Both the position numbers and the translations under genes were made by a program. The notes under the pieces were generated by a model that did not search any database, was not told where the DNA came from, and saw nothing but the letters and a program-made list of their open reading frames with translations. A DNA stretch of 31,206 nt from the IMG/VR virus record IMGVR_UViG_3300020175_001475, positions 1 to 31,206 of that record, one strand, 5' to 3'. This document shows positions 13,262 to 31,206 of the stretch, in pieces. Position 1 is the first letter of the stretch, and every line of letters begins with the position of its first letter. The stretch comes from a virus.

Positions 13262-13681
13262 GTGAAATCATTTAAGCATTTTTTTGAAGCAAATAAGCCC
13301 CTTGGCTTAATAGAGACGCTTCATTTTCAAGATTTAGGTCCCATTGAAGCTAAAGTTGATAGCGGCAATGGGGCTTATAATGTACTGCATGGTCAAAATA
13401 TCCAAGAAGTTGCAGATGGTCAAATATCATTTGATACTGTAAATGGAAAAACACTAACTGTGCCAGTTGAGGAGTATATCGATATTAATATCGGCTCTGG
13501 TAATATAGAGACAAGACCTGTAGTCAAATTTGATATAGAGGTCGGTGATGAGAGTTACCCTGGTACAAGTTTCTCTATAGGTGATAGGTCATCTAACGAA
13601 TATAAGATTCTATTAGGTAAGGACTTTATCGAACAGCTAGGCGGCTTAATCGATGTAAGTGCTGAAAACAACCTCGATTAG
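13262..13681 (+). CDS. Retropepsin-like (RimK-associated Zn-protease family) protein with possible capsid-targeting peptide
   Basis: A 139-aa protein. After residue 15 it follows the PF05618 'ATP-dependent zinc protease' pattern, a retropepsin-like fold: LGPIEAKVDSGNGAYNVLHG, with an Asp-Ser-Gly like the aspartic protease D-T/S-G, then ETRPVVKFDIEVG and SFSIGDRSSNEYKILLGKDFIEQLGGLIDVS. The first residues, MKSFKHFFEANK, resemble the T4 internal-protein targeting peptide (MKTYQEFIAEA) with a possible cleavage after E9. The start is GTG under a late box. It could be a packaged protease-like protein; the enzymatic role is unproven in this family. The last 4 bases overlap the convergent gene at 13678. 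Confidence 0.7.
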   Translation: MKSFKHFFEANKPLGLIETLHFQDLGPIEAKVDSGNGAYNVLHGQNIQEVADGQISFDTVNGKTLTVPVEEYIDINIGSGNIETRPVVKFDIEVGDESYPGTSFSIGDRSSNEYKILLGKDFIEQLGGLIDVSAENNLD

Positions 13682-14208
13682 TACCAGTCAGGTTTATTAA
13701 CTGACGTCCAGGTAGCAAAAGGCTTATCTTCTCTAATATAAGATCTATACTGATCTATTACTGACAGTCTTTCGAAGTCTTTATCTCGTCGACATTTGCA
13801 GTCTTGATTAATAGCGACAGCAAATTCAGTCAACCCAGTTTTATTAATAATAGTATTGTGTAAATTACTCTTACACCATTTAATAAAATCTAATGTAAAA
13901 TGTTCTTTTGAGCCTGGCCATCTAACCATTCGCTCCGTAAACATTTCAAGTGTGTGGTCGACTAACCACATAAAGTTATCAGTCGTCTCACGTGCCCATA
14001 TACTGCATTGATGATTGAAGTAGCCTTTACCTCGTTTACGTGGTTTACCAGTTGACGTCCTAGGACAATCTTCGTGATTTAACACTTCTTGAGGAAAGGC
14101 GTGTGCTAACATTATAGCACCTTCAATTTGCATCTTTGAACGAACATGTTGATCACATAATTCCTTCGCAGCAATAACAGGATCATTATCAGTACAAAAT
14201 ATATTCAT
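13678..14208 (-). CDS. Conserved marine-phage-type hypothetical protein
   Basis: A 176-aa protein starting MNIFCTDNDPVIAAKELCDQHV. I recognise this N-terminal pattern (NIF-x-x-D-x-DP-x-x-AA-x-x-x-x-D-x-HV) from phage proteins of unknown function. Features include conserved Cys and His residues, an arginine/lysine-rich loop TGKPRKRGKGYF, a CKCRRDKDF segment and an aromatic end TSVNKPDWY. The ELCDQHV stretch is faintly like ELADQHL of T4 pyrimidine-dimer glycosylase DenV, too weak to name it. A TATAAT box sits 6 bases before the ATG. It is transcribed in the same direction as FolE just upstream. Confidence 0.65.
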   Translation of the reverse strand: MNIFCTDNDPVIAAKELCDQHVRSKMQIEGAIMLAHAFPQEVLNHEDCPRTSTGKPRKRGKGYFNHQCSIWARETTDNFMWLVDHTLEMFTERMVRWPGSKEHFTLDFIKWCKSNLHNTIINKTGLTEFAVAINQDCKCRRDKDFERLSVIDQYRSYIREDKPFATWTSVNKPDWY

Positions 14209-14214
14209 ACCGAT

Positions 14215-14220
14215 ATTATA
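14215..14220 (-). promoter_or_regulatory. -10 box TATAAT, 6 nt before ATG
   Basis: TATAAT on the - strand with exactly 6 bases before the ATG at 14208, the same geometry as FolE and QueD. No convincing TTG-type -35 is present at 16-17 bp, so this may be a weak promoter or may serve read-through from FolE. Confidence 0.45.
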
Positions 14221-14232
14221 ATAGTGTTCCTA

Positions 14233-14883
14233 CTATCTACCCCAGTCGTTAACGAACGTATAGAACTCACTACGCGTAGATGTATCATCGAGAAAGTCAC
14301 CACTAATCTTCGCAGTCTTCATCTCGCACCCATCATGCTTAATACCGCGGAGGCATGCGCAAGTATGAGATGCAGAGATCATTACTGCAACACCTTTATT
14401 ACCTTCACATACTTCATCAATTGCTTTATGAATCTGAGTAGTTAGACCTTCTTGAATCTGCGGTCGTCTAGCATAATGCTCTACAATTCTATTCAGCTTA
14501 CTCAGACCGATAACTTTACCATCGGCAGAGGGTAAATAAGCTACGTGACATCTACCCGTAAATGCTAGGTGGTGATGCGAACATAGACTCTTTACAGGAA
14601 TACCACCCTGAAATACCATCCCATTATAGCCATCAGAAGGGAAAGCTGTAATATTAGGTAGCTCATTATAACAACCAGCTGCAATATCATTTACATAAGC
14701 TTTAGCAACACGCTTAGGTGTACCATCACTATTAGGATCGTTTCTCCAGTCAATACGTAAAGCATCTAGAAACTTTTCATAAGCTTCTGTAGCGTTAAGG
14801 ATAACCTGTTGTTTTTCGTCATCGCTGAGCGGCATATTACCATTAGCGGTTGGTAGCTTGGTTAGTTTAATTCTATCGGACAT
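14233..14883 (-). CDS. folE: GTP cyclohydrolase I
   Basis: A 216-aa GTP cyclohydrolase I, which converts GTP to 7,8-dihydroneopterin triphosphate, the first step toward folate and 7-deazaguanines. The zinc and catalytic motifs are clear: C101-S-H-H-H (SLCSHHHLAF), H173-x-C175 (SHTCACLRG), GLSKLNRIVEHYARRPQIQE and STRSEFYTFV at the end. The length is normal for the bacterial or phage enzyme. It has a strong sigma70-like promoter with the -10 box exactly 6 bases before the ATG. With QueD and QueE nearby, it most likely feeds a deazaguanine pathway rather than folate. Confidence 0.95.
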   Translation of the reverse strand: MSDRIKLTKLPTANGNMPLSDDEKQQVILNATEAYEKFLDALRIDWRNDPNSDGTPKRVAKAYVNDIAAGCYNELPNITAFPSDGYNGMVFQGGIPVKSLCSHHHLAFTGRCHVAYLPSADGKVIGLSKLNRIVEHYARRPQIQEGLTTQIHKAIDEVCEGNKGVAVMISASHTCACLRGIKHDGCEMKTAKISGDFLDDTSTRSEFYTFVNDWGR

Positions 14884-14889
14884 ACCCTT

Positions 14890-14917
14890 ATTATATAGTA
14901 TAGTCTAACGAAAGCAA
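14890..14917 (-). promoter_or_regulatory. Sigma70-like promoter TTGCTT-16-TATAAT for folE
   Basis: On the - strand TTGCTT (14912-14917) and TATAAT (14890-14895) are 16 bases apart, and 6 bases (AAGGGT) separate the -10 box from the ATG. The predicted start site is the A of the start codon. The AAGGGT is too close to the ATG to act as a Shine-Dalgarno site. Confidence 0.7.
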
Positions 14918-14923
14918 TAAATA
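14916..14923 (+). promoter_or_regulatory. Possible late box AATAAATA before the 504-aa gene
   Basis: AATAAATA lies 10 bases before the ATG at 14934, a wider gap than the usual 5-6. It overlaps the folE -35 box on the other strand. The identical box at 23555-23562 has the normal spacing, so this one is plausible but weaker. Confidence 0.35.
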
Positions 14924-14933
14924 TATTTACAAT

Positions 14934-16448
14934 ATGAGTGATTTCTTAAAATTAGTCCAGGAAGCGACACCGCCACATGTAATTGATCATTATGATAAAA
15001 ATGCAAAGACAAAGAAGGGCGGTATACTTAATAAAGTTGTGAGTGGTGTGCAGAAAGTATCGAGTGCTATAGATACCATTGAGAAGTATGGTACAGGTAA
15101 GTGGGATATCAATGATACTCTGCAGAAGATATTAACAAAACAACTAGATAAGAGTACGGATAAGATGGGATTATTTGGTAAATCAAATTATAGTCAAATT
15201 AAACTCGGAGCTGATATCACTGACAAAATTAATAATTATACCGATGGCGAGGACTATGACGTTAAGGCTGGTATTGAGAGAGCTAAAGCTGGTATTGAGA
15301 GGTCACGTGAGGGTATGAGTGGAATGCGCGATACTTTAGATGGGGCGTCGCAAAAGACTGACCCAGTTACAGGTGAGTCTACATTAAATGGTGGTTTTCT
15401 GAACATGATTAGTGAAGCTACGGCCGTATTAGATAGAGATAGAGATGGTGAGTTTCAGAATACAGCACAAATGAAGGGTGATAAGGAGGGTAAGTCTGCA
15501 CAATTAAAGGTCTGGGATGTGTTAAAGAGTGCTTTGGATTTACCAGAAGATGCACCTATGAAACTTACTCACCCAGATCCTCAATTGAGAGGTAAGAAAG
15601 AATTCGACAGAAGAATTGACTGGATTGCAAGAGGTGTACCTGCTTTTCTTAAGAATGTTAAAGAGGAATACCCAGATATACCATTTATCTTTAAAGATCA
15701 TAGTAAAGAGGATGGATTGTCAGTCTCAGCAATTGAGCAGGACGAGGAAGAGTTTAACTTTAACGATACTACTAGACAGAATTGGATCAAAACCCTAGGT
15801 GCAGAAAAAGCAGAGAAAATTGTTAGAGGGCTTGTAGATATATATCCCGGTGATCGTATTGTGTTTGATGAGCCAGTAGAAGATGAGCCAGTAGAAGACG
15901 AGCCAGTAAAACTAACTAGTGAAAATGCCTTGTTCAAACTAGCAGGCAGAACAAGCTTCGGTGCTAAAGGTATTCAATACACATTAAAGCCTGAGTTAGC
16001 GGATGTATCTAATATGCTTGAAGAGCGTGGTATAAAATATCTAACGTTCTTATTACAGACAAACGATAATGCATTCAAGGCTCCAGAAAGTAATAATGGT
16101 GTTATATATGCGTATGATAATAATAACCAACCCATCAATCCAATAACTACTAAGGATGTAAATTTTCAATGGAACGGTCAAGAGGGCTTATATACTCTTA
16201 GTACTAATAATGCTACATTAATGGGTGTTAAGTATAGTGAAGGTCAGTTTGCTATTAATAAGGATGACGTAATGCCATTAACAGATGGTAATCATGTATT
16301 ATATAGACCTGATGAAAATTCAGTATATATGAAATTTAAGATAGTACAGGATATGAACAACGCTGACAAGTACCTGATAGATAAGGATAAAGGAGTTGCA
16401 GCGACCAAGGAAGATATAGCAGAAGCAGAAGCAGTTGGAGACAAGTGA
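14934..16448 (+). CDS. 504-aa probable virion protein with T4-type targeting peptide and DEPVE repeat
   Basis: I do not recognise the family. The N-terminus MSDFLKLVQEATPPHV has the form of a T4 internal-protein targeting peptide with possible prohead-protease cleavage after E10. A helical region follows with a direct repeat AGIERAKAGIERSREGM (about residues 114-130). A tandem DEPVE-DEPVE-DEPVK (residues 312-326) forms an acidic hinge between the N-terminal part and a C-terminal domain of mixed beta character. No catalytic motif is seen. It stands alone between folE (divergent) and QueD. An internal head protein or other structural protein is the best guess. Confidence 0.7.
   Translation: MSDFLKLVQEATPPHVIDHYDKNAKTKKGGILNKVVSGVQKVSSAIDTIEKYGTGKWDINDTLQKILTKQLDKSTDKMGLFGKSNYSQIKLGADITDKINNYTDGEDYDVKAGIERAKAGIERSREGMSGMRDTLDGASQKTDPVTGESTLNGGFLNMISEATAVLDRDRDGEFQNTAQMKGDKEGKSAQLKVWDVLKSALDLPEDAPMKLTHPDPQLRGKKEFDRRIDWIARGVPAFLKNVKEEYPDIPFIFKDHSKEDGLSVSAIEQDEEEFNFNDTTRQNWIKTLGAEKAEKIVRGLVDIYPGDRIVFDEPVEDEPVEDEPVKLTSENALFKLAGRTSFGAKGIQYTLKPELADVSNMLEERGIKYLTFLLQTNDNAFKAPESNNGVIYAYDNNNQPINPITTKDVNFQWNGQEGLYTLSTNNATLMGVKYSEGQFAINKDDVMPLTDGNHVLYRPDENSVYMKFKIVQDMNNADKYLIDKDKGVAATKEDIAEAEAVGDK
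15867..15911 (+). repeat. Three 15-bp in-frame tandem repeats (DEPVE)
   Basis: Three copies of GATGAGCCAGTAGAA, the third with two changes (GAC, AAA). They encode DEPVE, DEPVE, DEPVK in the 504-aa protein. The near identity at DNA level suggests recent slippage expansion. Confidence 0.85.
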
Positions 16449-16500
16449 TCTCTCCCCCGTCCCTCTTATCTAAAGATATTTTAAGCTTACCATTTTTATA

Positions 16501-16562: not shown

Positions 16563-16568
16563 ACAATT

Positions 16569-17198
16569 ATGAAATACTTATCTACTAAGGTTATACCCAT
16601 GGGCAGTACTGCTTTTCGTCAATGGAAGGCGTATAGTCATTGCAAATTTATTCACGGATACCGTTTACAATGTAAGTTATGGTTTTCAGCTGATGAGTTG
16701 GATGACCGTAACTGGGTATTTGATTTCGGTGACTGTAAAGATATTAAGACAGCTTTAGAGGATCAATTTGACCATACTACGTGTGTAGCTGCAGATGATC
16801 CAGAGCTTCATAGCTTTCAGCATTTAGCTGACCGTGGATTAATACAACTTCGTATTATGCAAGATGGTGTTGGAGTCGAGAGAGCGGCTGAGTGGGTATA
16901 TAACAAAGCAAGTGAGATTGTTAAGGATAAGACGCAAGGTAGAGTTACAGTCGCAAAGGTTGAGGTATGGGAGCATGAAGGTAATAGTGCCGTCTATGAA
17001 CAATCGACTAGCTCTGCAGAAGATAAAAGTAATGCAAAGCCTGATGTAGAAGCTGCTATGCGGACCGCAGCTGTTGTTGAAAATACGGTAACTGAAGTAC
17101 CGCCTGCAGAACCTAATACCGAGCCCGGTCATCCCCCTAAGCAGAGAGTAACTCAGGGTATGTCAAATCCATTCGGTGGAACGAGTTGGGGAGAGTAA
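16569..17198 (+). CDS. queD: QueD / 6-pyruvoyl-tetrahydropterin synthase-like protein, divergent zinc site
   Basis: Residues 1-140 follow the QueD/PTPS fold: C25-x3-H29-G (HCKFIHGYRLQCKLWF), VFDFGDCKDIK, the catalytic pair in FDHTTC, and a late Glu in VEVWEHEG. In normal QueD three His bind zinc (one before the Cys and both in HGH). Here the second His of HGH is Tyr31 and the upstream AAH motif is missing, so only one ligand is visible. QueD makes 6-carboxy-tetrahydropterin from FolE's product. A low-complexity, Pro/Glu-rich tail of about 65 residues ending SNPFGGTSWGE is extra compared with QueD (about 120 aa). It overlaps the next gene by one base (TAATG). Family clear, activity less so. 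Confidence 0.75.
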   Translation: MKYLSTKVIPMGSTAFRQWKAYSHCKFIHGYRLQCKLWFSADELDDRNWVFDFGDCKDIKTALEDQFDHTTCVAADDPELHSFQHLADRGLIQLRIMQDGVGVERAAEWVYNKASEIVKDKTQGRVTVAKVEVWEHEGNSAVYEQSTSSAEDKSNAKPDVEAAMRTAAVVENTVTEVPPAEPNTEPGHPPKQRVTQGMSNPFGGTSWGE

Positions 17199-18193: not shown

Positions 18194-18199
18194 TACACA

Positions 18200-18207: not shown

Positions 18208-18273
18208 CCATATATACTCAGTCCATGAAGCGTAAAAAGTTCATGTAAAAGGTATAAATAGTATATGAATTAG

Positions 18274-18301: not shown

Positions 18302-18311
18302 AATACTAGTT

Positions 18312-19070
18312 ATGAACTTAGAAAAAGAAACATTAATACTCTCTGACGATAAAATATTTTATACGATAGAGGGTGAAGGTGAGTATATAGGTCAGCGCTC
18401 TTTGTTTATGCGCATGGCGATGTGCAATCTAACTTGCATTGGTTTTGCCTCTGAAGACTCTCCTCATGGTTGTGATTCCTTTATCTCTTGGAGTATTAAA
18501 AATAAGATGACTTTTAATGAGATCTTTCAGATGATGGAAGACAATAACTGGATTGAAAAACTTGAGAAGGGTACTATATGGAAGCTTACCGGTGGTGAGC
18601 CTCTAATTCAACAGAAGCAACTACTTAAACTAGTTGAAGCGTTTATTGAGAAGTATGACTTCACCCCGAAGATTGACTTCGAGACGAACGCTACTCTTAT
18701 GCCTAGCCCGAGATGGAAGGAAGAGTTTGATGCTACCTTCACAACTTCACCGAAGTTAACTACTAATGGTGACCCGGAGAATAAGACCTATAAGCCTGAA
18801 GTTCTCAAGTATCACAAAGAGATTAACTCTGGTTTTAAGTTTGTTATTAATGACCCTGCTGAAGATATAAAGGAGATATGGAGTAAGTACGTTGAAGATA
18901 CAGAGGGTATTAATGTAAGTCTCGATAGAATCTGGTTCATGCCGTGTGCTGGTTCACGTGTGGAACATATTGCTAATGCTGAGGCGGTTGTTGAATACGC
19001 GAAGTTAATGCACGTTCACTTCTCACCTCGATTGCATTTATTAGTGTGGGATAAGGCTCTTAAAGTCTGA
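18312..19070 (+). CDS. queE: 7-carboxy-7-deazaguanine synthase-like radical SAM enzyme, atypical cluster loop
   Basis: A 252-aa QueE-like protein. The N-terminus FYTIEGEGEYIGQRSLFMRM is the QueE substrate and SAM region, and LTGGEPLIQQ is the GGEP motif. QueE converts 6-carboxy-tetrahydropterin to 7-carboxy-7-deazaguanine. The three cluster cysteines are C38, C42 and C54: CX3C, then 11 residues before the third Cys, instead of CX3CX2C. The sequence after C54 (DSFISW) aligns with the usual DSAFTW, so an insertion of about 9 residues sits in the cluster loop. The reading frame is intact. It is followed by a strong bidirectional terminator. Confidence 0.85.
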   Translation: MNLEKETLILSDDKIFYTIEGEGEYIGQRSLFMRMAMCNLTCIGFASEDSPHGCDSFISWSIKNKMTFNEIFQMMEDNNWIEKLEKGTIWKLTGGEPLIQQKQLLKLVEAFIEKYDFTPKIDFETNATLMPSPRWKEEFDATFTTSPKLTTNGDPENKTYKPEVLKYHKEINSGFKFVINDPAEDIKEIWSKYVEDTEGINVSLDRIWFMPCAGSRVEHIANAEAVVEYAKLMHVHFSPRLHLLVWDKALKV

Positions 19071-20701: not shown

Positions 20702-20745
20702 CAGAACCGAAGCACTTCATGTAAAATGAATTGTATAACATTGAA

Positions 20746-20949
20746 ATGATTACATTTAAAACATTTTTTGAAAACTACGCCGATGGTAAGGTCAAGGGTA
20801 AAAGTAAAACGGGACGAGTAAAGCGAGCAGGTGCTAGTTGTAAGGACTCTATAACTGAACTAAAACGTAAAGCTAAGAAGTATAGTGGTGAAAAGGGCAA
20901 AATGTATCAATGGTGTCTTAATATGAAGAGAGGTAGAAAGAAGAAGTAA
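20746..20949 (+). CDS. Small basic protein with capsid-targeting-like N-terminus
   Basis: A 67-aa protein starting at the ATG 20746; an in-frame TTG at 20731 is less likely because the ATG begins the motif MITFKTFFENYADG, similar to the T4 targeting peptide. The rest is very basic: KSKTGRVKRAGASCKDSITELKRKAKKYSGEKGKMYQWCLNMKRGRKKK. The core RVKRAGASCK...LK-x-KAKKYSGE-x-x-KMY-x-WC-x-NMK is one I recognise from small proteins of marine T4-like phages of unknown function. It could be a DNA-binding internal head protein. It heads an operon with a membrane protein and superoxide dismutase. Confidence 0.7.
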   Translation: MITFKTFFENYADGKVKGKSKTGRVKRAGASCKDSITELKRKAKKYSGEKGKMYQWCLNMKRGRKKK

Positions 20950-20953
20950 TTAG

Positions 20954-21169
20954 ATGTTTATACTGGCTGGAATAGAACAATTGTTATTTGAAGTATTAGG
21001 TAGCCTCTTTAAAGAAGCTCTTAAGAAAATGGTAGCTGCGGCTGCATCACTAAAAGATGCTCCAGCTAGTTTTTTTATAACAGTCGGAGTTGTATGTACT
21101 AGCCTTATTGCATTAACTATTCTCTGCAAAAGATATAAAAGAAGTAAATTTAAAGAAAATGAAGCATAA
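20954..21169 (+). CDS. Small membrane protein (71 aa)
   Basis: An amphipathic N-terminal region (IEQLLFEVLGSLFKEALKKMVAAAASL) is followed by one transmembrane helix (ASFFITVGVVCTSLIALTILC) and a basic end KRYKRSKFKENEA. The ATG is 4 bases after the previous stop and the gene overlaps the dismutase start by 11 bases, so the three are co-translated. No family recognised. Confidence 0.65.
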   Translation: MFILAGIEQLLFEVLGSLFKEALKKMVAAAASLKDAPASFFITVGVVCTSLIALTILCKRYKRSKFKENEA

Positions 21170-22437: not shown

Positions 22438-22443
22438 ATTATT

Positions 22444-22471
22444 ATTATAACTTAAGACCTTGAAAATGCAA
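22444..22471 (-). promoter_or_regulatory. Sigma70-like promoter TTGCAT-16-TATAAT for the PD-(D/E)XK nuclease
   Basis: On the - strand TTGCAT (22466-22471) and TATAAT (22444-22449) are 16 bases apart, then 6 bases to the ATG. It interlocks with the divergent promoter at 22460-22487. Confidence 0.65.
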
Positions 22472-22487
22472 ATTCTTATTATAAAAT
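22460..22487 (+). promoter_or_regulatory. Sigma70-like promoter TTGAAA-16-TAAAAT
   Basis: TTGAAA (22460-22465), 16-base spacer, TAAAAT (22482-22487), 6 bases to the ATG at 22494. The same spacing is used on the other strand in the same 56-base gap. Confidence 0.55.
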
Positions 22488-22493
22488 ATATGT

Positions 22494-23321
22494 ATGAGAT
22501 TAGCTATTAGCGGTACGGGTTGTCAAGGGAAATCAACATTAATTAAGGACTTCCTAGAAGAATGGCCCATGTATAAAACTGAAAGTCAGACGTACCGTGA
22601 CGTACTTACTAGTGAGAAGTTACCTCACAGTAAAGAAGCTACTAAAGAGACACAATGGAGGATTCTCAATCATATGATTGATGAGATGCAGACCTTTAAC
22701 CCCGGTGATAATGTCATTATGGACAGGTGCCCTATTGACAACTTAGTTTACTCTCTTTGGTGTTTTGAGAAAGGTGTTGGTGATATTGATAAGGAGTTTA
22801 TTGATAAATGCATACCTCTTGTCTGCGAGAGTTTAAAGAATATAGACATCATATTTTTTACACCTATTACTAAAGCTGCTCCTATTACCCCTGTTGAAGA
22901 TGGTGTACGTGAAACAGATTCTACCTATATTAAAGAAATTGATAACCTATTTAAAATGATAGGAGCTCAGCATATTGAAAACAACGGCCTCAATCCATTC
23001 TTTCCAAAAGAAGATGCGCCGGGTTGGATTGAAGTATTCGGAGACAGGCCTGTTAGAATCGCCATGATTAAGCAATATATCGATGAGACCGGTGATCTTG
23101 TCGGTGGGTGGGAATGTGCTCCGGAGCCTGATATCGTCGACCCTAATAATCAATCTGTTGGTGATAACGAAGAAGCAGCTGCAATGAAAGCATTAATCGA
23201 TGATCAACAAAATGCTAAAGTGTTTGAGAAGGATCTCGCAGATCAGAAGCAGCTAATTAAAGATACGCTAGGTGATAAAGAAATCGATGAGATTAACAGT
23301 CTATATAATCCCAAAGCTTAA
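22494..23321 (+). CDS. P-loop NTPase/kinase (AAA_28/NadR-like)
   Basis: A 275-aa P-loop protein. The Walker A is G7-T-G-C-Q-G-K13-S-T (LAISGTGCQGKST). NVIMDRCPIDNLVYSLW is the D-R-x-x-x-D signature of nucleoside and nucleotide kinases and NadR-type AAA_28 proteins, and VRIAMIKQYID lies near the end of the core. The C-terminal 70 residues are acidic and coiled, beyond the kinase core. It probably phosphorylates a small metabolite such as a nucleotide or cofactor; the substrate is unknown. It is convergent with the short gene at 23342. Confidence 0.75.
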   Translation: MRLAISGTGCQGKSTLIKDFLEEWPMYKTESQTYRDVLTSEKLPHSKEATKETQWRILNHMIDEMQTFNPGDNVIMDRCPIDNLVYSLWCFEKGVGDIDKEFIDKCIPLVCESLKNIDIIFFTPITKAAPITPVEDGVRETDSTYIKEIDNLFKMIGAQHIENNGLNPFFPKEDAPGWIEVFGDRPVRIAMIKQYIDETGDLVGGWECAPEPDIVDPNNQSVGDNEEAAAMKALIDDQQNAKVFEKDLADQKQLIKDTLGDKEIDEINSLYNPKA

Positions 23322-23367
23322 GCTCTCAGCCTAAATCACTTTTACGGATTTAACGCTGCGGAGAGCT
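23321..23367. repeat. Nested inverted repeats between convergent genes
   Basis: AGCTCTC (23321-23327) pairs with GAGAGCT (23361-23367), and inside it TAAATC (23332-23337) pairs with GATTTA (23347-23352). This can form a long interrupted hairpin just after the P-loop gene and inside the end of the short - strand gene. There is no T-run, so it is not a typical terminator. Confidence 0.4.
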
Positions 23368-23548
23368 CTGCGATCTGAGTTGTATGTAGTTCGATAGTAC
23401 TACCGAACGTAGTATTTTCTAAACCTACAACGAAGTTGCTAAAATTTAACCTATTAGTCGCATTAGGTGTCTGGAGGATTATAAAGTCTCCATTAACGAC
23501 TTGATTGGTTTCCGGTAACTGATTGATACTAACGTCTGTGCTTGCCAT
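23342..23548 (-). CDS. Short fibre-type N-terminal domain protein
   Basis: A 68-aa protein MASTDVSINQLPETNQVVNGDFIILQTP...RLNFSNFVVGLENTT. The pattern I-x-x-LP-x-x-x-x-x-x-x-x-D-x-x-x-x-x-x-x-x-x-x-x-R/K-x-x-x-S-N-F is typical of the N-terminal attachment segment of phage fibres and related virion proteins. Here it stands alone, so it may be a small virion subunit or a fibre remnant. It has a late box AATAAATA 6 bases before the ATG. Confidence 0.6.
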   Translation of the reverse strand: MASTDVSINQLPETNQVVNGDFIILQTPNATNRLNFSNFVVGLENTTFGSTIELHTTQIAELSAALNP

Positions 23549-23569
23549 ATAAATTATTTATTATAAAAT
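23542..23569 (+). promoter_or_regulatory. Sigma70-like promoter TTGCCA-16-TAAAAT for the second glycan cluster
   Basis: TTGCCA (23542-23547), 16-base spacer, TAAAAT (23564-23569), then 7 bases to the ATG at 23577. A late box for the opposite gene sits in its spacer. Confidence 0.5.
23555..23562 (-). promoter_or_regulatory. Late box AATAAATA, 6 nt before ATG
   Basis: AATAAATA on the - strand, 6 bases before the ATG at 23548. It lies inside the spacer of the + strand promoter at 23542-23569, so the two may exclude each other. Confidence 0.55.
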
Positions 23570-23576
23570 ATATATA

Positions 23577-24371
23577 ATGTCAAAGATTGGTGTAGGTATA
23601 ATAACGTGTAATAGAAATGATTTTTACATTAGGTGTATTAAAAGCATTAAATCTGACTGGTTCGATGAGATTGTTACCATTAATGACGGTGATGAGCCTA
23701 TAGCAACTACAGACGCTCCTCATCGTCATATTATTAACAACGGGAGGAATTTAGGTGTTTGTAAGAGTAAAAATAAAGCGCTTACACACCTATTATCAAA
23801 AGGCTGTGAGTATATTTTTCTCGTAGAGGATGATATGGTGTTTAAAGGTAATGCGTTTGAAGAATATATTAGAGCAAGTAAGATTACTGGTATACAACAT
23901 ATGTCGTTTGCATACCATGGACCGGCTAATAAAGGTAATATTAGTAAAGGTAAACCTAAGCCGAGAAAGGTAATTGATTACGGTGACGTAAAAATTGCAC
24001 TAAATCAGCACTCAGTTGGTGCTGTATGTTTTTATACCAAGGAAGCATTAGATAGTGTAGGTATATTTGATGAAGAGTTTGATAAAAATAATTTTGAACA
24101 TGTAGAGCATTCTTATAGTCTCGCCAAAGCCGGTTACAGTACACCTTACTGGTGGTGGGCTGATATAGCTAATAGTTGCGATCTTATTCAAGAACAGGCT
24201 TGTAGTGAAGAATCCTCGTCAATAAGAAGAGGTGATGATTGGCAGCAAAAAATAATCGACAGTGCATACTTATTTCAGAAGAAGCATGGCTATATGCCGG
24301 CATGGCAAAATGCAGTCCCCGATACACCATTGCCTGACGTTATTAAGATTTTAAAGAGTATGAAAAAATGA
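23577..24371 (+). CDS. GT2-like glycosyltransferase
   Basis: A 264-aa GT-A transferase. Visible parts are the start IGVGIITCNRNDFYIRCIKSI, the NNGRNLGVCKSKNKAL nucleotide-binding segment, and the metal motif E84-D-D86 (FLVEDDMVF). A later SVGAVCFYTKEALDSVGIFDEEF is the acceptor-binding part common in GT2 enzymes. It opens the second glycan cluster under its own promoter. The next gene starts 4 bases before its stop. The C-terminal 60 residues (SSSIRRGDDWQQ...) are extra to the core. Donor unknown. Confidence 0.82.
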   Translation: MSKIGVGIITCNRNDFYIRCIKSIKSDWFDEIVTINDGDEPIATTDAPHRHIINNGRNLGVCKSKNKALTHLLSKGCEYIFLVEDDMVFKGNAFEEYIRASKITGIQHMSFAYHGPANKGNISKGKPKPRKVIDYGDVKIALNQHSVGAVCFYTKEALDSVGIFDEEFDKNNFEHVEHSYSLAKAGYSTPYWWWADIANSCDLIQEQACSEESSSIRRGDDWQQKIIDSAYLFQKKHGYMPAWQNAVPDTPLPDVIKILKSMKK

Positions 24372-25093
24372 TATCTTTTATTATAGCTTACAAGCAAGAT
24401 ACTAAAGAAAGGGCTGTAAATTTAGAATACTGTAAGAAGTATTATAAACAATTGGTACCTGGTTGCGAGATTCTGATTAAAGAATCATCTGATAATAACT
24501 TCAATAAGTGTAAGTTATATAACAAAGGAGCTTTAGAGGCCAAGCACGATGTGTTGTGTTTTTTAGATAGTGATGTGTTTGTTTCAAAATACTCTATTCA
24601 GAAATCTATTGAATTGGCAGATATGGATAACGTCATTATAGGTTATAATGGAGTGGCTATATATCTATCATATAAATCTAAACGCACATTAACTAGTGAT
24701 TTAAAATATCAGAATATGCTAGAGATACTACCGGTAAACTACGTACCGACTCGATTAGAGAAAAATGAGATGTTTGAGGTAGGTAATCTTAAAGCAGTCG
24801 GTGGCTGTTTAGTAATGTCTAGAGACTGCTTTAAAGATGTTAACGGATTTAATCCTAATTTTATTAACTGGGGATATGAAGATAATGAGATTGTAACCAG
24901 ATGCCATAAACTCAAAAAGAATGTTATTTTAGCTAATACAAAAGACCCATATCTATTTCACTTACCTCATCATGATGTAGAGGGGGATAAGAGTGTACAT
25001 GACTTTTACACAAACAATCAAACCGAGTATATGAAAGTATGCGAGATGAATTATAATGATTTACAAAAATACATAAAAACATGGAAGCTATAG
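24368..25093 (+). CDS. GT2/GT7-like glycosyltransferase
   Basis: A 241-aa GT-A protein: ISFIIAYKQDTKERAVNLEYC start, metal motif D67-S-D69 (VLCFLDSDVF), and the galactosyltransferase C-terminal (GT7C-type) block VGGCLVMSRDCFKDVNGFNPNF-x-NWGYEDNE. That GG-x-x-x-x-x-R-x-x-F-x-x-x-N-G-F plus W-G-x-E-D-x-E is strongly diagnostic of galactosyl- or GalNAc-type transferases. It is translated in overlap with both neighbours. Confidence 0.85.
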   Translation: MISFIIAYKQDTKERAVNLEYCKKYYKQLVPGCEILIKESSDNNFNKCKLYNKGALEAKHDVLCFLDSDVFVSKYSIQKSIELADMDNVIIGYNGVAIYLSYKSKRTLTSDLKYQNMLEILPVNYVPTRLEKNEMFEVGNLKAVGGCLVMSRDCFKDVNGFNPNFINWGYEDNEIVTRCHKLKKNVILANTKDPYLFHLPHHDVEGDKSVHDFYTNNQTEYMKVCEMNYNDLQKYIKTWKL

Positions 25094-25749
25094 ATGTAAT
25101 TATACTCTCAAATACAGCTAATTTAGAGTATTACAGCAAACTAAAAAAGTGTATTAACTCTCTAAAGTCGAGTACTAATATTAAAACTAATATTATTGTT
25201 ATTGAGACAAACAAAAAATTAAGAGGTAAAAATTTAAAGCTACCAATCGATACACTCTATATTCCCGAGGATGCAGAATTTAACTATAATAAGTTTCTGA
25301 ATTATGGTCTCACTTTCTGCAAACACGATTATTTGTGTATATCAAATAACGACGTTTATTATAATAAAGATGTTTTATGTACCCTAGTCGATCACTTAGA
25401 TGATTATGATTCCGTTAGCCCGTGGGATGATAATTCTACGTGGCGGTTCCATCAAACCAAGGGAATACATGTAGGTTACTCTACCAGGATGTTTGTAACC
25501 GGTTGGTGCATTGTAACAAAGAGAGTCACTATAGATAAAATCGGTGGTAAGTTTGACGAGAGATTTTCTTTCTGGTTTCAGGATGATGATTATTCTAAGC
25601 TATTAGAGACTAATAATCTAACGCATGCGTTAATTGGTGATGTATCGGTATGGCACGACTGTGGTCAGAGTCACGAACTATTCAGTAAAGAGGATAGAGA
25701 GAAACAAACACATGGCTTATCAGAGGTCTTTAACGAAAAATGGAAGTGA
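25081..25749 (+). CDS. GT2-like glycosyltransferase
   Basis: A 222-aa GT-A protein. DVIILSNTANLEYYSKLKKCINSL is the first beta-alpha unit, and LCISNNDVYYNK carries N89-N-D91 in place of the usual DxD, as seen in many bacterial GT2 rhamnosyl/galactofuranosyl-like enzymes. FVTGWCIVTKRVTIDKIGGKFDERFSFWFQDDDY is the acceptor and general-base segment. It overlaps the preceding gene by 13 bases and the fucosyltransferase-like gene by 10. Confidence 0.8.
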   Translation: MEAIDVIILSNTANLEYYSKLKKCINSLKSSTNIKTNIIVIETNKKLRGKNLKLPIDTLYIPEDAEFNYNKFLNYGLTFCKHDYLCISNNDVYYNKDVLCTLVDHLDDYDSVSPWDDNSTWRFHQTKGIHVGYSTRMFVTGWCIVTKRVTIDKIGGKFDERFSFWFQDDDYSKLLETNNLTHALIGDVSVWHDCGQSHELFSKEDREKQTHGLSEVFNEKWK

Positions 25750-26555
25750 ATAAAAAAATTACATTGCGAGATAGTAACTTCGCTGGTAGGGATGTCTTGA
25801 GTATGCCAGGTGTTAATTTTTCCTGGTATACAGGTGACAATATAGTTAGTGAGCACGTTTTCTTTACAGATAAAAAATTGCAGGATGTAGATGAGGCTCA
25901 GTATAGCAATGTTAAGAAAGTTGCGTGGCTGCTCGAACCTAAGGGTATCGACCCGTCTATATATGATTGGATCTTAAAAAATTATCATAAATTTGATAAC
26001 GTACTAACATTCGACCGTAATATTATATCTCAAATTGATAACGGTATATTTCAGCCGTACGGTACCTATTGGGTTGAGAAAGATAGCCCTGTAAAGAGTC
26101 GCTCAGTCTCTATGATTGCATCCTACAAAAAAGAAGCTACTGGTCACAAGATCAGACACTCAATATATAAACACTTTAAGAGCCGTATAGATACGTTTGG
26201 TACTATTACCGGAAGCCGGTTAACTAATAAAGATGCAGGCTTGAGGGATTTTAGATTTTCTGTTGCTATTGAAAACTGTATACAAGATGGGTATTTTACT
26301 GAAAAAATACTCGACTGTTTTGCTACAAAAACCATCCCGATATACTGGGGTACACGTACGGTTGGAGAGTTTTTTAATACAGATGGTATTATATTTGTGG
26401 ATGATTTTAAGAGTATTGAAAGTCTAATTAACTCTCTCAGCGAAGACGTGTACAGTAGTAAGCTCGAGGCAATTCAAGAGAACTTTAATAAGATAGACGA
26501 CTACCATATACCGGAACTGTACATTGAGAAAAATTACAAGGGCTTGTTACATTAA
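25740..26555 (+). CDS. GT10-family fucosyltransferase-like protein
   Basis: A 271-aa GT-B protein. The key block RFSVAIENCIQDGYFTEKILDCFATKTIPIYWG matches the GT10 alpha-1,3-fucosyltransferase motif (F-x-x-x-x-E-N-S-x-x-x-D-Y-x-T-E-K-x-x-x-A-x-x-x-x-x-x-P-x-x-x-G), with R and E/K residues that bind GDP-fucose. VAWLLEPKGIDPSIYDWI is the acceptor-side helix. GT10 enzymes transfer fucose from GDP-fucose, or close analogues, to GlcNAc/Glc or Gal; the exact sugar here is unknown. It is the last gene of a four-transferase block. Confidence 0.85.
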   Translation: MEVNKKITLRDSNFAGRDVLSMPGVNFSWYTGDNIVSEHVFFTDKKLQDVDEAQYSNVKKVAWLLEPKGIDPSIYDWILKNYHKFDNVLTFDRNIISQIDNGIFQPYGTYWVEKDSPVKSRSVSMIASYKKEATGHKIRHSIYKHFKSRIDTFGTITGSRLTNKDAGLRDFRFSVAIENCIQDGYFTEKILDCFATKTIPIYWGTRTVGEFFNTDGIIFVDDFKSIESLINSLSEDVYSSKLEAIQENFNKIDDYHIPELYIEKNYKGLLH

Positions 26556-26602
26556 TAACGTGAAAATACTGGTTAGCAGTAGCATTAGTACTACTACGAC
26601 AT

Positions 26603-26617
26603 TATAATAGCTATAAT
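26603..26617 (+). promoter_or_regulatory. Double TATAAT before the methyltransferase-like gene
   Basis: Two TATAAT boxes (26603-26608 and 26612-26617) come just before the ATG at 26618. The second abuts the start codon. No good -35 box is seen at 16-17 bp, so activity is uncertain. Confidence 0.35.
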
Positions 26618-27190
26618 ATGAATATACAGGAAGAGTATACTAATCGAAAAAATAATAGTTCTGATATTAATGAACATTTAGAGACATTATACAAATATGG
26701 TAAAAAGTGTAAATCTATAACAGAGCTCGGCTCACGTCACGGTGACAGTACTGTTGCTCTACTTAACAGTCAACCGGAAACAATGGTTAGTTATGACCTT
26801 TTTAAATCTGAATTTATTGATGAAATTAAATTAAAGAATTATAAGTTTATAACAGATGATTCCCTTAAAATTAGTATTGAAAAAACTGATTTACTTTTTA
26901 TAGATACCCTTCATAGATATTTTCAATTATATAATGAATTAGGTTTACATGCTAAAAATGTACGTAAGTATATTATTTTACATGATACTGAAACGTACGG
27001 TTATTCAGATGAGCCTTTATATGCCTCGCATATAGCTGTAAAAATGAGTGATAAGGTAATTGCTACTAAAAAGAAAGGTCTTAAACAAGCTGTAAATGAT
27101 TTTCTACATGAAACAAAAGAAGGTAAAAACTGGGCTGTTCATGAGGAATTTAAAAACAATAATGGCCTCACAATTCTATCGAGAATTTAA
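26618..27190 (+). CDS. SAM methyltransferase-like protein (Methyltransf_24 type)
   Basis: A 190-aa class I methyltransferase-like protein. SITELGSRHGDSTVALL is motif I (usually E-x-G-x-x-x-G-x-S), TMVSYDLFKSEF is the acidic strand 2, DLLFIDTLHRYFQLYNEL is motif II with the family D-x-x-H, and YIILHDTETYG follows. The D-T-L-H and L-H-D-T-E residues match the metal-site His/Asp of the cephalosporin-hydroxylase and Methyltransf_24 group. It likely methylates a sugar hydroxyl of the glycan built by the preceding genes. It has its own promoter region. Confidence 0.75.
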   Translation: MNIQEEYTNRKNNSSDINEHLETLYKYGKKCKSITELGSRHGDSTVALLNSQPETMVSYDLFKSEFIDEIKLKNYKFITDDSLKISIEKTDLLFIDTLHRYFQLYNELGLHAKNVRKYIILHDTETYGYSDEPLYASHIAVKMSDKVIATKKKGLKQAVNDFLHETKEGKNWAVHEEFKNNNGLTILSRI

Positions 27191-27204
27191 ATGAGAATAA
27201 CTAG

Positions 27205-27233
27205 TTGATAAGTTATTATTAATACGCTATAAT
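27205..27233 (+). promoter_or_regulatory. Sigma70-like promoter TTGATA-17-TATAAT for the DUF366 gene
   Basis: TTGATA (27205-27210), 17-base spacer, TATAAT (27228-27233), 8 bases to the ATG at 27242. It shares TAGTTGAT with the QueD and QueE promoters. Confidence 0.7.
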
Positions 27234-27241
27234 AAGAATAT

Positions 27242-27829
27242 ATGATTATTAAAGATATTCAAGTTTACGACGGCCCTCTCATTCATAAGAGATTCGCATA
27301 CGATTATTTCCGTAATAAAGTATTACCTACTGGTAATATAATTGCTTTTAGATGTCCGATGGATGTGAGCATTGATGGTATGATTGACCAAGAAGATGTG
27401 CTGCAGGGAGATTATATATATAGTGATGATGCAGTTAACTTCTGTTGGGAGATTCCAAACTTAGATAGGTTTGGAGCCGTAGCGTTTCAGCGCTTACTCA
27501 ACACTCAGATTGCTAGTATACTATCTGGTTTAACCAATAAGCCGATTGAGGTAGATGGAGACGACCTCATGGTTCATGATGAATTTGAAGGAAATGACGG
27601 TAAGCTACAAGCTGTTGGTAAGTGTAGTGTTAGTATTACATACTCAAAAGATAATGTAGCTATTGGGCATACGGGTATTAATATTAATGCTGGTAGTAAA
27701 GCTCCTGCATTTGCTTATAGTACTAAACTTAATGAGGAGCAGACTCAAGAGTTTATGACTAGGGTTATTGATACCTTTTACGGTATGGTAGATGATATCT
27801 TCATCGCTACTACTAAGATTAATCTATAA
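27242..27829 (+). CDS. DUF366-family protein
   Basis: A 195-aa protein matching the DUF366 (PF04017) pattern as I recall it: a start of the form F-x-x-D-x-x-x-Y-D-G-x-x, IIAFRCPMDVSIDGMIDQEDVLQGDYIYSDDAVNFCWE (the very conserved D-x-x-x-M-V/I-D-x-E-D-V-x-x-G-x-Y-I-Y-S-D-D), and HTGININAGSKAPAFAYS. DUF366 was described mainly in archaea and in 7-deazaguanine-modifying phages, where I recall, without being able to check, that it was proposed as a 7-carboxy-7-deazaguanine decarboxylase (DpdL). Its promoter resembles those of the QueD and QueE genes, which supports a link. The next gene starts in a one-base overlap. Confidence 0.75.
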   Translation: MIIKDIQVYDGPLIHKRFAYDYFRNKVLPTGNIIAFRCPMDVSIDGMIDQEDVLQGDYIYSDDAVNFCWEIPNLDRFGAVAFQRLLNTQIASILSGLTNKPIEVDGDDLMVHDEFEGNDGKLQAVGKCSVSITYSKDNVAIGHTGININAGSKAPAFAYSTKLNEEQTQEFMTRVIDTFYGMVDDIFIATTKINL

Positions 27830-28191
27830 TGACTATTTTTCAGTATCTAAATAGCTTACTCTATAGTAAGAAGGTAATAGATATGAACTGCGACGATGAG
27901 TCGCAGTTCAACCTGTTTATGGTCAATCGATGGGCTAGTATGTACTCACCTGAGATGGCTAATTATATTAACGAGTCGAGTAATAGGTATTGGAGCTTGT
28001 TTGATGATAAGCAGAATCAATATAACTATCTATATAACCTATTGCCTCGTTTGAGATTTAAAAAGATTAGCTATCTCAAGAAGATTAAAAAGGATAAAGT
28101 GAAGAAGGAAGAAGAGCCAATCCTACCTGAGTTTATATCTAAGAGGGAGTACAAACATAATGTTGACTTACAGAAAGTGCTTTATAAATAG
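27829..28191 (+). CDS. Clamp-loader small subunit-like protein (T4 gp62 type)
   Basis: A 120-aa protein with the features of phage gp62-like subunits: an acidic start, an NRWASMYSPEMANYINESS segment (F-x-x-N-R-x-x-S-x-x-P), DKQNQYNYLYNLLPRLRFKKISYLKKIKK and a basic end. T4 gp62 works with gp44 to load the sliding clamp on DNA for replication and late transcription. It is shorter than T4 gp62 (187 aa), as in other marine T4-like phages. The identification is by pattern only. A late promoter for the next gene lies in its 3' end. Confidence 0.55.
   Translation: MTIFQYLNSLLYSKKVIDMNCDDESQFNLFMVNRWASMYSPEMANYINESSNRYWSLFDDKQNQYNYLYNLLPRLRFKKISYLKKIKKDKVKKEEEPILPEFISKREYKHNVDLQKVLYK
28183..28190 (+). 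promoter_or_regulatory. T4-type late promoter TATAAATA, 6 nt before ATG
   Basis: A perfect TATAAATA within the last codons of the gp62-like gene, 6 bases from the ATG at 28197. It predicts a late, leaderless transcript for the co-chaperonin. Confidence 0.75.
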
Positions 28192-28196
28192 TCTAT

Positions 28197-28631
28197 ATGG
28201 CTGAAGCATCTATTGACAACCTAGCAACAAAAAGAAGTCTAATTGATCTGAGCTCTCATAGCGATGGAGACTTCGATTTAAGTAAAGAGTTTATTTTATC
28301 GTTTGTATATGACGATATTATTTTAGTTGAGTATATTGATGAAGCACCGGATGCTTCCGGTGATAATATTATGAGAGATGGTATTTATATACCCACTAAT
28401 ACTCTCACAAAAACGTGGCGTAAAGCTAAGGTCATTCTGGCTGGCCCGGAATGTAAATATACAAAAGCAGGTGACATCGTTATGTTTCCTAATGATAAAG
28501 GAGCGTCAGTTGCAAATATTCAGATCGCTGATTATGGTACAATAAACAAGGGTATGTTTTTGAATGAGCAAAGATTGTTCGGTATTTGCAAGAGACGAGA
28601 AGATATAGAAGACGGTAATGCCAAAAGTTAG
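28197..28631 (+). CDS. GroES/gp31-like co-chaperonin
   Basis: A 144-aa beta-barrel protein. SFVYDDIILVEYIDEAPDASGDNIMRDGIYIPTNTLTKTWRKAKVILAGPECKYTKAGDIVMFPNDKG follows GroES: a first strand with R/K-hydrophobic-V residues, a mobile loop (EAPDASGDNIMRDGIYIP, where gp31 and GroES dock on GroEL), then G-x-x-x-x-x-x-x-x-V-x-x-G-D-x-V-x-F. T4 gp31 replaces GroES to help GroEL fold the capsid protein. The late promoter fits that role. The C-terminus is extended (RREDIEDGNAKS). Confidence 0.75.
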   Translation: MAEASIDNLATKRSLIDLSSHSDGDFDLSKEFILSFVYDDIILVEYIDEAPDASGDNIMRDGIYIPTNTLTKTWRKAKVILAGPECKYTKAGDIVMFPNDKGASVANIQIADYGTINKGMFLNEQRLFGICKRREDIEDGNAKS

Positions 28632-28983
28632 CCGTCAGAGTTTATTGCAGTTATTAGATAATAATGTCTGTGAAATAACATTTATCAAGCGTACAACAGG
28701 TGAAGTGCGTACGATGCTCTGCACGAATGATCAGACTATTTTAAATAGTGTAAACGGTCGTACCACATTAAACTATAAACCACCTTCTAGGCTGCCTGAG
28801 TATGCACCAGGGCCAAAGAACCTAGTATTAACTTGGGACGTCTTCATGCAAGATTGGCGAATGGTTAACATGGATACTTGTAACCTTATTAAGAGTATAC
28901 CACGTGATGAGTTCTGGGAGTATTTTAACACTAGTGTTTATACTATGACGACAGAACAGAAACAACAATTTATGGGTAAATGA
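28618..28983 (+). CDS. WYL_2/SH3-like small phage protein
   Basis: A 121-aa protein. NNVCEITFIKRTTGEVRTMLCTNDQTIL followed by LVLTWDVFMQDWRMVNMDTCNLIKSI is the pattern of the phage WYL_2 (PF10902, Sm-like SH3 barrel) family: C-E-I-x-F-x-K-x-x-G-x-x-R-x-M-x-C-T, then V-x-D-x-x-x-x-x-W-R. Members may bind nucleic acid; function unknown. It overlaps the co-chaperonin by 14 bases and the next gene by 4. Confidence 0.7.
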   Translation: MPKVSRQSLLQLLDNNVCEITFIKRTTGEVRTMLCTNDQTILNSVNGRTTLNYKPPSRLPEYAPGPKNLVLTWDVFMQDWRMVNMDTCNLIKSIPRDEFWEYFNTSVYTMTTEQKQQFMGK

Positions 28984-29327
28984 GACAGGTAGCAGCTATA
29001 GAGACACAATTGAACGACTTCCTGCTAAGGGACGTAGTATTTCTCCTGAGTAATGGAAAGACCCTTAAAAAAGGTAAATTAATTTTATTTAAGTTTAAGG
29101 AATTTCATTTTGTATTTACGCTAAGGAATCATAAAGATGAAACACGCGTGTATGAAATACCCTACCCGTATAACTGGGAACGGCAAGACGCTGGTAATTT
29201 AAAGTTCTCATATGACCTAGCGGAGCTCGCTGGTACTAGTAAGACCCTATTTTACCGTATAAAGGTACTTGACAAATCTAATTGTAATAAATTTTACGAT
29301 TCAAGCCTTGTTTTATCTGTTGTGTAG
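28980..29327 (+). CDS. Hypothetical protein (115 aa)
   Basis: A beta-rich, basic protein: MRQVAAIETQLNDFLLRDVVFLLSNGKTLKKGKLILFKFKEFHFVFTLRNHKDETRVYEIPYPYNWERQ. The regular strands suggest a small beta-barrel, perhaps nucleic-acid-binding. I do not recognise it. It is translationally coupled to the WYL_2 gene (ATGA overlap). Confidence 0.65.
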   Translation: MRQVAAIETQLNDFLLRDVVFLLSNGKTLKKGKLILFKFKEFHFVFTLRNHKDETRVYEIPYPYNWERQDAGNLKFSYDLAELAGTSKTLFYRIKVLDKSNCNKFYDSSLVLSVV

Positions 29328-29335
29328 CTTATACT
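29308..29335 (+). promoter_or_regulatory. Sigma70-like promoter TTGTTT-16-TATACT for the helicase
   Basis: TTGTTT (29308-29313), 16-base spacer, TATACT (29330-29335), exactly 6 bases to the ATG at 29342. It lies in the end of the preceding gene. Confidence 0.55.
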
Positions 29336-29341
29336 GGTTAC

Positions 29342-30964
29342 ATGGTAGGTAAACTTTTAAATAACTTTCCTCAGGGATATACCCCGAGTAGTCAACAAGA
29401 TAAGATAATTAGAAAAATTGACGGAGCATTTAGCTCTGGAAATAAATTCGTTATATGTTGTGCGCCTACCGGAAGTGGTAAGAGCTTTATATCAAAAACT
29501 CTCGCGAATGCTTCAACTCCTTTTACTGATAACTTTACTGAGTTGGTTAATACATATGCAGCCTTTAAGATGGATTCTAACGGTAATTATGCGCATGCGA
29601 GCGAATGCAAAAATGACCTACCTGCCGGCGCGTTTGCATTAACTATTACAAAGGCTCTGCAAGACCAATACCAGGATTTATTCGAAGATACAGCTGTACT
29701 GAAAGGTAAGGCGAACTATAGAAGTACTATTGACGAGAATATTGATGTCGAGCAAGAGTCTGTAGTAATGCCGAAGAAGATTCTAGATGCTCATAGACAG
29801 GCTAATAAATGTGACTATCATAATGACCGTAATGCTGCTCTTACTAGTAAGTTCACGGCTTTAAACTATAAGATGTTCTTAGCGTTGCCCGATCATGTCA
29901 AGTATAAGAACTACATTATATGTGACGAGGCATCTGAGTTAGAAGATGAAATCATAAAGCAATTTTCTGTAGCGATTGATATTCAAAGATTGCAGAAACT
30001 TAAAGTTAAGATCTTCCCGCTCGCATCTACTAAAAATACTGCTGTTAAAAAGTGGTTAAATGAAGTACAGTCAACCATTATTGAGCATATTAACATATTG
30101 ACTGATGGTATTAAATTAGGCCTCTCAAATAACGAGTTATCTAAGTTAAAATATCTTAGGAGCTTGCATAGTACTTTAGTATTGATTAGTGATACCTGGC
30201 AGCAGTGCGAGTATATTGTACAGGTAGAGGATAAGTTTAATATCAGACTTACTCCGCTCAAAGTTGATACCCTCTCGAGCTATATCTTCAAGTATGCTGA
30301 GAAAGTTTTATTGATGTCAGCTACAGTTATTGATCATAAGAACTTAGCTAAGACTCTAGGTATTAAGGAATATAAATATGTCGAGTCTGGTAGCTCATTC
30401 GACCCAGCTAAAGCACCTATATACATATCTAGATCTAATCGGCTTAATCATGCTAACCTACAAAAAGCTCTACCATCGATTGTAGAGCAGATAAAGGAGA
30501 TTTGTAAGAATCATAGCGGTGATAAAGGTATTATACATACACATACAAATTACATTACCGGGTACCTTCAAAGAGGTTTGAGTGATTCGAGGTTTCTTTA
30601 CCGAGATGGTATGACCCGTAATGAAGAGATCTTAGAAGAGCATACAGCGTCAGATCAACCAACAGTATTAGTAAGTCCATCCTTAGGACTAGGAGTCGAT
30701 CTTAAGGGAGACCTAGCACGTTTTCAGATTATTATTAAAGCTGCGTACCTACCACTCGGGGATGATAGAGTAAAAAAGATGTTTGAGCAGGATAAGCAAT
30801 GGTATGCTAATAAGATGCTTTCAAACTTTATACAACAATGCGGTAGAGGTATACGTAATCAGGATGATCATTGCGTTACGTATGTTCTCGACGCTAATAT
30901 ATATGATGCGGTTATACGTAATAAATCAAAACTACCCAAGTACTTCCTAGATAGATTCGTATAA
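29342..30964 (+). CDS. XPD/DinG-like superfamily 2 helicase
   Basis: A 540-aa SF2 helicase. Motif I is A41-P-T-G-S-G-K-S48, motif II is D195-E-A-S (YIICDEASELEDE), VLLMSATVID is motif III, and GLGVDLKGDLARFQIIIKAAYLP and QQCGRGIRNQDDHCVTYVLD are the motif V and VI region of the Helicase_C_2 (DinG/XPD) group. These enzymes unwind DNA 5' to 3' in repair. The LKGKANY that normally precedes the Fe-S cysteines is followed by Ser, and only one Cys (NKCDYHN) remains, so the 4Fe-4S cluster is probably absent. It has its own sigma70-like promoter. Confidence 0.85.
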   Translation: MVGKLLNNFPQGYTPSSQQDKIIRKIDGAFSSGNKFVICCAPTGSGKSFISKTLANASTPFTDNFTELVNTYAAFKMDSNGNYAHASECKNDLPAGAFALTITKALQDQYQDLFEDTAVLKGKANYRSTIDENIDVEQESVVMPKKILDAHRQANKCDYHNDRNAALTSKFTALNYKMFLALPDHVKYKNYIICDEASELEDEIIKQFSVAIDIQRLQKLKVKIFPLASTKNTAVKKWLNEVQSTIIEHINILTDGIKLGLSNNELSKLKYLRSLHSTLVLISDTWQQCEYIVQVEDKFNIRLTPLKVDTLSSYIFKYAEKVLLMSATVIDHKNLAKTLGIKEYKYVESGSSFDPAKAPIYISRSNRLNHANLQKALPSIVEQIKEICKNHSGDKGIIHTHTNYITGYLQRGLSDSRFLYRDGMTRNEEILEEHTASDQPTVLVSPSLGLGVDLKGDLARFQIIIKAAYLPLGDDRVKKMFEQDKQWYANKMLSNFIQQCGRGIRNQDDHCVTYVLDANIYDAVIRNKSKLPKYFLDRFV

Positions 30965-30977
30965 CCGGCTGTATTTG

Positions 30978-30985
30978 TATAAATA
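30978..30985 (+). promoter_or_regulatory. T4-type late promoter TATAAATA, 7 nt before ATG
   Basis: A perfect TATAAATA, 7 bases before the ATG at 30993, in the 28-base gap after the helicase. Confidence 0.75.
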
Positions 30986-30992
30986 TTTGTCG

Positions 30993-31206
30993 ATGGAGAC
31001 ATTTAAACAATACTACTACCTCGATGAAAATTTAAAGAGTGCAATCGCTGCTGGTGCACTAGGCCTAGCTTCGCTTGCTGGCGGTACAACAGCAGACGCG
31101 TCTGGTATTACGTTCTCCTCACCCTCTAAAGCTGCTCTAAAGGTATCTCCATCACCTATATATAATCCTAGTTTTATTCAGGAAGTAAAGAGCGCCGAAA
31201 ATTTTC
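30993..31206 (+). CDS. Late protein with targeting-like N-terminus, 3' end outside window
   Basis: The first 71 codons of a gene that runs off the window. The start METFKQYYYLDENLKS is again like the T4 targeting peptide, followed by an Ala/Gly-rich helix SAIAAGALGLASLAGGTTADASG and a Ser/Pro-rich linker (SSPSKAALKVSPSPIYNPSF). This N-terminus resembles those of packaged or tail-associated lysozyme-type proteins in marine phages, but the catalytic part is not visible. Late promoter directly upstream. Confidence 0.7.
   Translation, partial: METFKQYYYLDENLKSAIAAGALGLASLAGGTTADASGITFSSPSKAALKVSPSPIYNPSFIQEVKSAENF

Follow-up and report, generated by a model that had tools for sequence, protein, structure and literature searches.

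The question raised by this locus is why five proteins with unrelated bodies should begin with similar short peptides. The window (the whole stretch of 31,206 nucleotides that was analysed) is a 31-kb fragment of a viral contig carrying T4-like and marine-phage genes, including a QueD-like gene with a PTPS domain, and its source is an uncultured marine T4-like phage. An initial annotation had pointed to tag-like N-termini on proteins encoded from positions 13262, 14934, 20746, 21159 and 30993, all on the plus strand, and had claimed that the bodies behind them are unrelated. All five were found at these coordinates, and the bodies are indeed diverse, namely a retropepsin-like protein (PF05618), an unknown protein, a small basic protein, an Fe/Mn superoxide dismutase and a protein at the window end that is a probable lysozyme. 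The sequences indicate that the five peptides are very probably T4-type capsid-targeting sequences (CTSs) borne by a wider cargo set, which would very probably comprise the retropepsin-like protease, the 504-residue protein, the basic protein and the Mn-type superoxide dismutase, with a lysozyme as a probable fifth member.

In T4, the CTS is a propeptide of 10-19 residues that depends on residues 4 and 7 for targeting and is cut off after L/I-x-E (PMC9026906). The T4 sequences used as controls were IPIII (MKTYQEFIAE↓A, the arrow marking the cut), gp24 (MAKINELLRE↓S) and gp22 (MLKEQLIAE↓A). In the window the peptides extend 9 (13262), 10 (14934), 9 (20746), 14 (21159) and 12 (30993) residues up to the Glu, with hydrophobic residues near positions 4 and 7 (F4/F7, F4/L7, F4/F7, Y5/L8 and F4/Y7, respectively). 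The predicted cut-site triplets of the dismutase (ILE) and the 30993 protein (LDE) match L/I-x-E; the 14934 protein has VQE, and the proteins at 13262 and 20746 have FFE, with a Phe at P3 that is unlike the Leu or Ile of the T4 motif.

The retropepsin-like protein starts with a GTG codon at 13262, which lies 5 nt downstream of TAAATA, a T4-type late promoter element (13251-13256), and both the GTG and the close upstream promoter are kept in seven orthologues. Its predicted tag, MKSFKHFFE↓A (13262-13288), belongs to a family in which nine of ten members fit the tag rule given below and which keeps M-x-[ST]-F-K-x-F-F-E; the residue after the Glu varies (A, S, K, Q) and the subsequent residues diverge in two members. 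The body (13289-13681) scores 30 bits against PF05618 (cut-off 27) and contains a D-S-G motif of the D-[TS]-G type at residues 33-35; in an annotated phage collection its sole clear match was a domain within an annotated glutathione synthetase of Pelagibacter phage Mosig. The 504-residue protein is likewise preceded by TAAATA (14918-14923, 10 nt upstream of the ATG at 14934), and its predicted tag, MSDFLKLVQE↓A (14934-14963), has M1, F4, L5 and E10 invariant among six family members that are 55-94% identical overall. For its 494-residue remainder (14964-16448) there was no Pfam and no convincing PHROG match, and an AlphaFold2 model of the family was uninformative (pLDDT 45). The ATG of the basic protein sits at 20746 inside a longer mechanical ORF (TTG at 20731), and orthologues favour the ATG. 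Its predicted tag, MITFKTFFE↓N (20746-20772), precedes a small body, NYADGKVKGKSKTGRVKR... (20773-20949), and varies among orthologues in two registers, MINFxTYFE↓N and MNSFIQFF(S/L)E↓N, with E↓NYAD retained despite the one-residue insertion. Searched directly, the annotated phage collection yielded no relatives of the 14934 and 20746 proteins.

The dismutase carries the predicted tag MKHNYDQLTNLILE↓G (21159-21200), followed by a Mn-type body (21201-21785) that matches PF00081 and PF02777, has Mn superoxide dismutases as its best matches and contains the His/Asp metal-ligand segments LHYNKHYKGY, NHQLFW and DVWEHAYY. Homology to most solved superoxide dismutases begins at residue 22-23, so the tag is an extension, lying mostly outside the part that aligns with cellular enzymes. 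Among relatives the P1 Glu is invariant in 21 distinct tagged sequences, encoded by GAA in 12 and GAG in 9, and P1' is variable (E, Q, S, K, G). Such an enzyme may shield packaged DNA, or disarm superoxide in a new host.

The gene at 30993 has 71 codons within the window and a TAAATA at 30980-30985, 7 nt upstream of its ATG. The predicted tag, METFKQYYYLDE↓N (30993-31028), leads into a body that opens with a Gly/Ala-rich hydrophobic stretch and is truncated by the window end (31029-31206); in a relative that is 82% identical, a phage lysozyme domain follows (PF00959, E 8.9e-11), and the body here is probably a lysozyme. This is the least certain of the five tags because a membrane anchor of the signal-anchor-release (SAR) type fits too. 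That the N-terminus of this one protein is the SAR domain of an endolysin and not a capsid tag is a serious possibility, at somewhat under an even chance, given that the hydrophobic stretch occupies residues ~17-34 and is followed by the lysozyme domain in the relative. However, L-D-E↓N matches the cleavage motif, and the M-x-T-F-x-x-[YF] start is common to three different hydrolase-like bodies at this locus, which share a start of ~35 residues made up of that motif and the Gly/Ala-rich stretch; among these bodies, profile support is for lysozyme only.

Similar starts on all five proteins could also be due to chance, or be a by-product of AT-rich leaderless late mRNAs that favour Met-Lys-x-Phe as first codons. 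These are AT-rich genomes in which many genes start 5-6 nt downstream of a late promoter, and a loose motif that asks for no more than [hydrophobic]-x-E close to the start gives no significant excess in the window by itself (14 of 47 genes, vs 9.3+/-2.5 in shuffles); under that motif the five window sequences by themselves would not have been convincing. We used a rule drawn from published T4 CTS genetics (a hydrophobic residue at about positions 4 and 7, then hydrophobic-x-E), compared with shuffles that preserve residue composition. The rule was composed after the five starts had been seen, so its p-value in the window is not independent, and weight is placed on the relatives and on cyanophage S-CREM2. 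In the window 6 of 47 genes matched, vs 1.0 in shuffles, and five of these are the proteins of the initial annotation. The sixth, at 8249, is probably a false positive with a sugar-aminotransferase-like N-terminus, and a match at an internal Met in the ORF at 27829 was set aside. Applied literally, the T4 pair-of-hydrophobics rule reached significance in G001 (a 185-kb relative) and in G003, a second relative, and not in the window.

Matches to the rule numbered 18 of 222 in G001 (5.0+/-2.2 when shuffled) and 13 of 104 in G003 (2.5+/-1.5). Across the related contigs, which are related to each other and were represented by one member per family, 34 of 438 family starts matched vs 9.6+/-2.9, the highest of 500 shuffles reaching 20, and internal Met residues used as a control matched in 32 of 1421 cases (~2%; Fisher 5e-7). 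Gene starts in these contigs were taken from a simple purpose-made caller with a small bonus for TAAATA, and single starts may therefore be wrong. The further proteins with the same start that the initial annotation had proposed to look for thus exist, in the form of many tagged late proteins in relatives. The excess over both shuffles and internal Met controls makes chance or codon bias a very improbable source of the tags, as do the use of both synonymous codons for the conserved Glu, the tagging of the dismutase and the basic protein, neither of which has a TAAATA late promoter in front, and the association with virion proteins in cyanophages of different composition (see below). TAAATA precedes three of the five tags in the window, and the tag is found in 19 of 137 late-promoter families vs 15 of 301 others; the association between promoter and tag is only loose because tagged genes also sit within operons.

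The spacing between promoter and start differs from that in T4, where the late promoter element usually lies 13-46 nt upstream. Of 224 genes in G001, 66 have a TAAATA that ends 5-6 nt ahead of the start codon (at 5 nt, the same holds for 2 of 720 internal ATGs) and 17 have a TATAAT 6 nt ahead of it; among 78 late-adjacent genes, only 1 has an SD-like site. Close spacing also occurs in the window (13262, 14934, 28197, 30993 and others), suggesting that mRNAs are largely leaderless in a T4-like phage.

A CTS in the T4 sense goes together with a gp21-type protease, which the initial annotation had suggested seeking. A PF03420 search of the 31-kb window found no protease; the fragment stops short of the head genes. 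Peptidase_S77 was detected in five related contigs, including G013, which is 88-92% identical to window positions 21372-31201. This contig runs on past the right end of the window and, ~15 kb beyond it, carries the gp21 protease gene (8323-8991 in G013), the scaffold gene gp22 and the capsid gene gp23. Its gp21 is 36-38% identical to that of T4 and conserves T4 gp21 His85, Ser140 and Asp168, which we take to be the catalytic residues. The cut sites predicted in the core substrates, MDIKQILSE↓A at the start of gp22 and CLNE↓A in gp23, agree with the tags.

The claim that the tag is portable is borne out by its loss or exchange among homologous bodies. Homologues of the dismutase have a different tag (MKLKSLLFE) in one relative and are untagged in two others, and NUDIX homologues are tagged in two contigs with no clear tag in the rest. 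DUF6267 proteins of this clade carry a tag, as does that of Melnitz (MINFSKYITE), and that of S-PM2 lacks one. Genes with such starts can also be clustered: at 15.7-22.4 kb in G003 about ten adjacent genes have tag-like starts, DUF6267 among them, and an island of CTS-like starts at 83.5-88.6 kb in G001 includes a DUF6267 fused to a cytidylyltransferase domain.

Virion proteomes of cultured cyanophages, obtained by mass spectrometry, allow the tag to be compared with the content of particles. In S-CREM2, whose virion proteome has been published (PMC10665884), the unchanged rule matched 5 of 26 non-structural virion proteins (SAM hydrolase, kinase, cytidylyltransferase, ORF15 and ORF136) vs 3 of 167 undetected proteins (Fisher p=0.0013). 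ORF13 (MKDLHSFLTE↓Q) and Cas9 (...RFASFMAE↓A) are additional fits by eye, and the Cas9, which is in the virion proteome list, has a longer CTS-like start, MTSRWSNWSTGSDKKPLRFASFMAE↓A. The cytidylyltransferase T4-GC190 has been detected in virions of S-SM1 (PMC3037559) and S-SCSM1 (PMC9602691), where it starts with MKKFSAFLNE↓A and MKSFLQFLKE↓A, respectively, so that a cytidylyltransferase tagged MKxFxxFLxE↓A is virion-detected in all three phages. Over the 40 kb of S-SCSM1 that were covered, the rule fell short of significance (1 of 8 vs 2 of 49), and the virion NMNAT was tagged nonetheless. Many virion proteins are without a tag, but in cultured cyanophages the tag is associated with presence in virions. 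Whether such virion enzymes are packaged or co-purified was left undecided by the authors, and the tag is not mentioned in the sections of the S-CREM2, S-SM1 and S-SCSM1 papers that were consulted.

Since unrelated proteins share a T4-like head tag that is predicted to be removable, the virus probably carries enzymes inside its virions, and these may enter the host together with the DNA. The tagged proteins would be made late in infection, the tag would bind the scaffold core of the prohead, and a gp21-type protease would cut after the Glu; the mature body so released within the head would remain with the DNA and could be ejected into the next host. We consider this whole account, from late synthesis to head retention and possible ejection, likely to be correct; packaging, cleavage and injection are what we infer for these particular proteins. 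There is an even chance, in our judgement, that virions of this clade hold and deliver tagged dismutase, retropepsin-like protease, lysozyme and others, and that CTS-like starts predict the virion enzymes of marine T4-like phages. It is rather unlikely that the tags are real CTSs but sit on components of the prohead core, or on DNA-associated components of the head, that work solely within the particle and do not reach the host. A dismutase guarding packaged DNA against oxidation would be an example of such a role, the basic protein and low-complexity members would suit internal DNA-binding roles, and gp22 too has a tag-like start. Yet in T4, IPI and Alt are injected and do their work in the host (PMC9026906), and the retropepsin-like and lysozyme bodies have no obvious role in a head.

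Carriage with possible delivery has its closest parallel in T4 IPI, IPII, IPIII and Alt, with which the proteins here share an N-terminal peptide of 9-14 residues, hydrophobics near positions 4 and 7, a [hydrophobic]-x-E site, unrelated bodies, late expression and a gp21-type protease, encoded here by a near-identical relative. It is already established that the internal proteins of T-even phages have a conserved CTS in front of bodies that differ widely (PMC3012670). Unlike the T4 internal proteins, the bodies here are enzymes such as superoxide dismutase and a retropepsin-like protease, P1' spans a wider set of residues (A, S, N, G, E, Q, K), tagged families outnumber T4's handful per genome, and late genes are largely leaderless. 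The virion enzymes of cyanophages (SAM hydrolase, kinase, Cas9 and cytidylyltransferase of S-CREM2; T4-GC190) are also non-structural and mostly have CTS-like starts (for example MKDFDSFLEE, MKRFDAFLTE, MKNFSSFLTE↓A and MKKFSAFLNE↓A), but their cargo differs, with no dismutase among those enzymes. In phiKZ and SPN3US many internal head proteins are cut after Glu by a gp21-related protease (PMC9026906); there the motif is S/A-x-E, the cargo is unrelated and the propeptides are longer. The mechanism is thus known from T4, and what is new is the dismutase, retropepsin-like and probable lysozyme cargo, how many families are tagged, the clade, and the connection of the tag with published virion proteomes.

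If this is true, the N-terminal sequence alone would foretell which phage enzymes travel in the particle and are present before phage gene expression, and a puzzle of cyanophage proteomics, namely what brings metabolic or regulatory enzymes into virions and whether they are contaminants, would become a testable rule. It would also suggest protein delivery for some 'auxiliary metabolic genes', superoxide dismutase in this case, and the tags would be natural peptides for loading capsids, for which T4 could serve as a test system.

Other genes of the window belong to functions apart from the tagged set. Runs of glycosyltransferase-, radical-SAM- and nucleotide-sugar-enzyme-like genes at 299-13025 and 23577-26555, recognized by eye only, look like a surface-glycan cassette. 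Genes resembling GTP cyclohydrolase (14233-14883, minus strand), QueD (16569-17198) and QueE (18312-19070), with a profile check for QueD only, suggest a deazaguanine pathway.
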